Below, piece after piece: positions 10,429 through 11,268 of a DNA stretch of 64,000 nucleotides. A model generated the notes under the pieces. The model did no database searches, had not been told where the DNA came from, and was given only the letters and a program-made list of their open reading frames with translations. Source of the stretch: an uncultured bacterium. GTDB taxonomy: Bacteria; UBP6; UBA1177. The stretch spans positions 124,976 through 188,975 of the forward strand of contig CAJOFY010000001.1 of assembly GCA_905233945.1 (NCBI GenBank), given 5' to 3'. The translations under genes and the position numbers were made by a program. Position 1 is the stretch's first letter. Each line of letters starts with the position of its first letter.

Positions 10429-11268
10429 TTATTCTTTTGTCTCTTTTGGTTTTCTGGGTGTTCTGCCTTTTCTTGCCGGTTTTGCAGGAGCCGTTTCAGG
10501 CGCCGTTTCTACGGGTTTCGGTTCGGATTTCGGTGCTGGTGTTTCCGCAGGTTTTTTAGGTGTTCTGCCTCTTTTTGCCGGTTTTTTTGCAGGTTCGGGT
10601 TGTAGAGACGTTTCATGAAACGTCTCTACGGGTTTCGGTTCCGGTTTTTGAGATGTATCAACCGTCTGTACGGGTTCGGGTTTCGGCATCGGTTTCTGTT
10701 CCTGTTTCGGAGCGGGTTTTACCTGAGCCGTTTCGGGAAACGTCTGCACAGGTTCCGGTTTTACAGGAGCCGTTTCGGGTGTGGTTTCTGCGGGACGCTG
10801 GTTGTTGTTTCTGTTGCGTCCGTGCCTGCGGTTTCTTCTGCGTCTTCCTCCCTGCTGCTCACTGCCGTTCTGCTGTTGCCCGTTCTGATTGTTCTGCGGT
10901 TTTTCGGCAGGTTCGTGTTTCGGCTGGTCTGAGGTTTTTTTGACATCGGGAATATCGTCGAGATTCGCGAAGTCGTTTTCCATAACCATTCCGGAAATTA
11001 TCGGCTCAAGCATATCATGGATTTTGGTCTTTGCAGCATCATAGATCAGTTTGAAAGTTGCGGGAATTTTGTCCGACTGGTCGATCATTCTGTCGATTGA
11101 CTTGAATGTATCAATGACAAGCTCTTTCTTTGCTTTTACTTTCTCGTTTTTGTCAATGATGCCGTTGACTACGGAAACACCTTTGGAAATTTCTTCGACA
11201 AGGGCTGTAATTTGTTCACGTGTGAGAAATTTGCCTAAAACTTTCTCGAAAAGTGAAGTGTCTTTCAT
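10429..11268 (-). CDS. Protein with helical N-terminus and Pro/Glu/Lys-rich repetitive C-terminus
   Basis: Low-complexity repeats PEPVQTFPETAQVKP / PKPVETFHETSLQPEP / PKPVETAPETAPAKP. Confidence 0.7.
   Translation of the reverse strand: MKDTSLFEKVLGKFLTREQITALVEEISKGVSVVNGIIDKNEKVKAKKELVIDTFKSIDRMIDQSDKIPATFKLIYDAAKTKIHDMLEPIISGMVMENDFANLDDIPDVKKTSDQPKHEPAEKPQNNQNGQQQNGSEQQGGRRRRNRRHGRNRNNNQRPAETTPETAPVKPEPVQTFPETAQVKPAPKQEQKPMPKPEPVQTVDTSQKPEPKPVETFHETSLQPEPAKKPAKRGRTPKKPAETPAPKSEPKPVETAPETAPAKPARKGRTPRKPKETKE
10602..10629. repeat. Perfect 28-bp palindrome GTAGAGACGTTTCATGAAACGTCTCTAC inside a CDS
   Basis: Sequence equals its own reverse complement; encodes VETFHETSL in frame on the minus strand. 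Confidence 0.95.

Follow-up and report, generated by a model that had tools for sequence, protein, structure and literature searches.

The closest described relatives of the repeat reported here are the REPs that accompany TnpA_REP (RAYT) transposases of subclass 2.4, which occur in Cyanobacteria, Bacteroidetes and other scattered phyla, carry the motifs NH[IFV]H, WQ and YIxNNP, and are associated with double-foot REPs as well as with in-frame REPs in the transposase gene itself, between the HUH and Tyr motifs (Quentin et al., 2018, PMC6006769). In-frame REPs in genes, together with repeat-specific REPtrons, are also described for the GTAG REP families in the accessible part of Di Nocera et al. 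(2013, PMC3733652). This kind of REP is already known; what is new is the host group and the gene-by-gene record presented below.

The window, i.e., the whole stretch of 64,000 nucleotides that was analysed, derives from an uncultured bacterium of UBP6 and contains the sequence GTAGAGACGTTTCATGAAACGTCTCTAC, which is self-complementary over all 28 bp and lies in frame within an open reading frame of 279 aa (Table 1). No other perfect palindrome of the window is as long, the runner-up measuring 18 bp, and the composition of the window predicts 0.00026 palindromes of at least 28 bp; with up to three mismatches the sequence has one site in the window versus none in shuffled sequences. Being a palindrome, it reads identically on both strands, and two of its frames contain stops (TAG and TGA). 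Because only one frame is open, a surviving in-gene copy of this CATG-centred subtype must read VETFHETSL, and the fixed peptide needs no selection at the peptide level. The palindrome is a GTAG-tagged REP in the double-foot form, with GTAG at both ends; the sequence and the reading frame agree with the original prediction, which had described a perfect in-frame palindrome encoding this peptide. A search of viral contigs gave no match, and a literature search with the bare sequence returned unrelated matches only.

Table 1. Positions of the host gene, the REP copies in the window and the RAYT loci in the genome
Feature	Position	Strand	Remarks
Host gene (279 aa) with conserved N-terminal domain and Lys/Pro/Glu-rich tail holding REPs	10429–11268	-	
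Double-foot REP (GTAG...CTAC), perfect 28-bp palindrome, CATG-centred subtype	10602–10629	.	VETFHETSL from either strand
Diverged REP CAGACGTTTCCCGAAACGGCTC	10725–10746	-	VQTFPETAQ; 2 mismatches to REP arms
Diverged REP GAAACGGCGCCTGAAACGGCTC	10488–10509	-	VETAPETAP; 2 mismatches to REP arms
Possible strongly decayed REP	10765–10791	-	AETTPETAP; 3/5 informative codons fit the REP; weak alone
Possible strongly decayed REP	10648–10671	-	VQTVDTSQ; inferred from reading the sequence, not separable from low-complexity sequence
RAYT locus	C1:104193–104866		REPs on both sides
RAYT locus, cognate of the window palindrome	C50:1666–2439		REPs on both sides
Broken RAYT copy (fragment)	C28		NF047646 match

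The 2.65-Mb genome holds five exact copies of GTAGAGACGTTTCATGAAACGTCTCTAC and 19 sites with at most three mismatches, against none for the reversed-sequence control. The core GAGACGTTTCNNGAAACGTCTC occurs with at most three mismatches in 62 places (reversed control, 0) and the pattern GAGACG-N6-30-CGTCTC in 72 (reversed pattern, 3); in total, related sites number about 60–70 versus 0–3 for the reversed-pattern controls. The core was present in all 15 searched genomes of the genus and in none of the 26 genomes outside the genus that were sampled alongside, while a scan of named genomes found it, among the matches listed, in rumen Bacteroidales, cyanobacteria and at least two UBP6 genomes. The palindrome is thus neither unique in the genome nor missing from relatives, and the objection along these lines that the original prediction had raised against itself does not hold.

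The copies were examined in the genome stretches surrounding the search matches. Aligned copies show that most subtypes carry GTAG at one end only (e.g., GTAGAGACGTGACCTGACACGTCTC and GTAGAGACGTTTCCTGAAACGTCTC), whereas the CATG-centred subtype often carries it at both ends (GTAG...CTAC), exactly so in five copies. Most copies in the genome are single REPs, unlike REPINs, which were reportedly described by Bertels and Rainey in 2011; like REPINs, some copies are inverted REP pairs with their GTAG feet outward (e.g., C20:85889–85963). The family as a whole combines a palindrome within the 20–40 bp range of GTAG REPs, many dispersed copies, a GTAG end and an association with RAYT genes. Its GTAG foot, palindrome length, dimers and clusters, intragenic in-frame copies and repeat-specific REPtrons are shared with the GTAG REP families as the accessible part of that account presents them (PMC3733652); there, the palindrome differs from the perfect, loop-free and two-footed one found here, and UBP6 is not among the hosts described. 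In a set of composite intergenic repeats (L166 = G000:C20; L147/L162/L167/L171/L172), the flanks are near-identical and the REP bodies differ, which suggests that the REP core was replaced or converted.

RAYT genes, for which the original prediction had advised a search elsewhere in the genome, were indeed found. The profile NF047646 matched two ORF halves at C1:104228–104758 and at C50:1705–2331, in addition to the fragment on C28. Scores in the genome were 28–30 bits against a curated cut-off of 80, and one ORF scored 22.7 against 23 for Pfam Y1_Tnp (PF01797); splitting of the domain by in-frame REPs accounts for part of this shortfall. A RAYT profile matched the TnpA_REP structure 4er8 (E = 3.4e-4), and IS200-type transposases were also matched. 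Pfam Y1_Tnp detected no RAYT in the genome and gave matches in only one genome of the genus; this miss had suggested orphan REPs with no transposase, an idea that was dropped once NF047646 showed the split ORFs. The readable Y1_Tnp matches in other phyla were mostly ordinary IS200-type transposases. No RAYT match to NF047646 was obtained in five of the 15 genus genomes with REPs, three of which are incomplete assemblies.

Each of the three RAYT loci (C1, C50 and the C28 fragment) lies amid its own REP subtype, and the C50 gene is bracketed by the CATG subtype of the window palindrome and holds two further in-frame copies between its HUH and Tyr motifs. Nine full-length RAYTs of the genus could be aligned; they share a conserved HUH motif (PNHxH) and a tyrosine in EYIxNN, and all nine contain at least one in-frame REP between the two. 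In a comparison of RAYT clades built from our own sequences only, three REP subtypes map one-to-one onto three RAYT clades across the genus, and the distribution of subtypes on the RAYT tree requires the fewest possible changes, a value that none of 200 shuffles reached. RAYT homologs in Bacteroidales and other groups likewise have a REP of their own in the corresponding linker. By its motifs and REP arrangement, rather than by a tree with the published set, the transposase appears most like TnpA_REP subclass 2.4: it has the NHIH HUH motif (as PNHIH), WQ and a tyrosine in YIxNN, its REPs flank the gene and stand in frame between HUH and Tyr, and GTAG is found at one or both ends. On the other hand, the host genus belongs to UBP6, YIENNV stands where subclass 2.4 has YIxNNP, and a single genome harbors three REP subtypes together with three RAYT loci, one of them a fragment.

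With simple and approximate gene calls, about 29 genome matches (some overlapping) fall in convincing genes, and nearly all of them are in the VETFHETSL frame; two reverse-orientation copies, one within the C1 RAYT and the other in an ORF of 1335 aa, use another frame. The insertion sites are linkers or lie between Pfam domains: between MmeI_TRD and MmeI_C, between LysM and M23, in front of the FtsY SRP54 domains, and preceding a TonB plug and MORN repeats. In several species, one linker of an HlyD-like gene contains no insert or hardly any; the same linker contains a CATG REP in G000 and G012 and other REPs in G001, G002, G003, G006 and G007, in frame every time and with conserved flanks. In FtsY (L174:3690–4967, G000:C37), which we take to be essential, the in-frame REP lies in the acidic N-terminal linker. 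MmeI-type restriction-modification genes at contig ends (L155:2–475, L170:3814–4293 and L175:1–1584) have in-frame REP pairs at domain boundaries; they are probably paralogous, or else a single split family of genes.

The host gene of the window palindrome shows the same variability. Its conserved N-terminal domain matched no Pfam family above the cut-off, and its orthologs, among which genes with and without the insertion both exist, contain from 0 to about 6 in-frame REPs of differing subtype: those of G004, G010 and G007 lack them, and that of G002 has as many as six. In the ortholog on G009:C58 (L190), the tail shifts frame and its REPs read YRRFLRRLKNL, which is due to a genuine frameshift or else to faulty assembly. 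As for the degraded relatives of the palindrome reported earlier, the two diverged copies in Table 1 stand, with no more than two mismatches to the REP arms, and the AETTPETAP copy is weaker. The tail is repetitive and rich in Lys, Pro and Glu, and a VET.PETS.(K)P-like context is common to several orthologs; the palindrome and its relatives could accordingly be side effects of a VET.PETS repeat duplicating in tandem at the protein level. The codons speak otherwise. Among 25 VET..ETS-like motifs in the orthologs, REP codons occur at 133 of 148 positions versus 50 expected from codon usage (z 16.5), and the window's three imperfect copies that were scored have them at 13 of 17 positions versus 6.1 expected (z 3.9), both z values being upper bounds because the copies are not independent, owing to descent and duplication. 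Moreover, the exact 28-mer occurs in unrelated genes and between genes, and GTAG-footed copies flank transposase genes; the identical intergenic GTAG-footed copies refute a duplication acting on the protein, which we regard as extremely improbable. The earlier proposal of a repeated palindromic element inserted in frame as coding sequence, with decayed relatives, holds.

Two further explanations concern the nature of the element itself. The original prediction had likened it to the palindromic elements of Rickettsia (RPEs), and what remains of this comparison is the in-frame insertion of palindromic repeats into unrelated genes, a trait of RPEs as cited by Di Nocera et al. (PMC3733652). CGTC repeats, some equated with RPEs, are reported there from Bacteroidetes and Spirochaetes, without association with a transposase gene. 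Here, by contrast, RAYT genes lie between copies of the repeat, GTAG rather than CGTC is conserved, at one end or at both, and the sequence differs from that of RPEs, which belong to the CGTC end class and have no dedicated transposase reported. The clustering of REPs with cognate RAYTs also argues against an RPE/CGTC-type element that spread without a dedicated transposase, and there is hardly any chance that this is the correct assignment.

The element might also be under selection as a binding site or as a hairpin with a regulatory role (a terminator or a HIP1-like site, for instance) and owe its copy number to mutation and selection, not to transposition. HIP1 of cyanobacteria, to which the palindrome had been compared, is an iterated 8-bp palindromic site; iteration of a palindrome is the shared trait, but the comparison fails otherwise, and we know of no GTAG foot or transposase association for HIP1. 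Many copies of the present repeat are intergenic, as selection of a site would allow, and the two CATG-clade RAYTs share an internal REP that is identical at 25 of 25 nt, although their fourfold sites, near saturation, agree at only 13 of 30. However, the palindrome region matched no Rfam family, and the subtype-specific clustering at RAYT genes, the GTAG foot, the REPIN-like pairs and the different subtypes found at the same orthologous linker fit transposition but not a binding site. A selected site thus seems very unlikely.

Very probably, then, a cognate HUH/tyrosine RAYT dispersed a double-foot REP over the genome, and copies of this REP became in-frame protein sequence. The mobilisation of the REP by the RAYT is what we infer from the sequences, and the following model is proposed. 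By analogy with biochemically studied RAYTs, the cognate enzyme (TnpA_REP, most like subclass 2.4) would recognise the GTAG-tagged hairpin in single-stranded DNA, cut beside it and rejoin the REP elsewhere, thereby spreading the double-foot REP through the genome. Insertions would presumably be tolerated between genes and, within genes, in flexible linkers; surviving in-gene copies of the CATG subtype must read VETFHETSL, the other frames having stops, and older copies decay to VET.PET-like peptides. Part of the low-complexity tail in the window protein and in other proteins very probably stems from the REP in this way. The system offers a clear example, backed by orthologs, of how a very small mobile element turns into protein sequence. 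In it, insertion, exchange of subtype and decay can be traced, next to empty sites, in one linker across the genus, and the cognate transposase and its REP subtype are identified. The host genus in UBP6, the subtypes matched to RAYTs in a single genome and across the genus, and the turnover at orthologous linkers seem to be additions to what was known.

The exact conservation of the RAYT-internal REP across near-saturated synonymous sites seems to be a further addition. At one and the same position of the protein, each RAYT clade has a REP of its own; the frames differ and the encoded peptides are unrelated. The exact conservation could reflect function, re-insertion or gene conversion. It is tempting to speculate, although we consider it rather unlikely, that this REP is maintained as DNA or RNA, for example as a self-binding site that limits expression of the transposase; the system offers a test of whether RAYT-internal REPs regulate the transposase. 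Apart from the RAYTs described above, G009:C62 (L212:3562–4197) carries a second, different RAYT-type gene, which scores 91 bits against NF047646 and has no bracketing REPs. Finally, the sequences CACYHH010000002.1 and CACYHH010000007.1 (L128 and L144), entitled 'uncultured Spirochaetales RUG11946', are the same RAYT contigs as those of the genus member G006, and their title appears to be taxonomically wrong.
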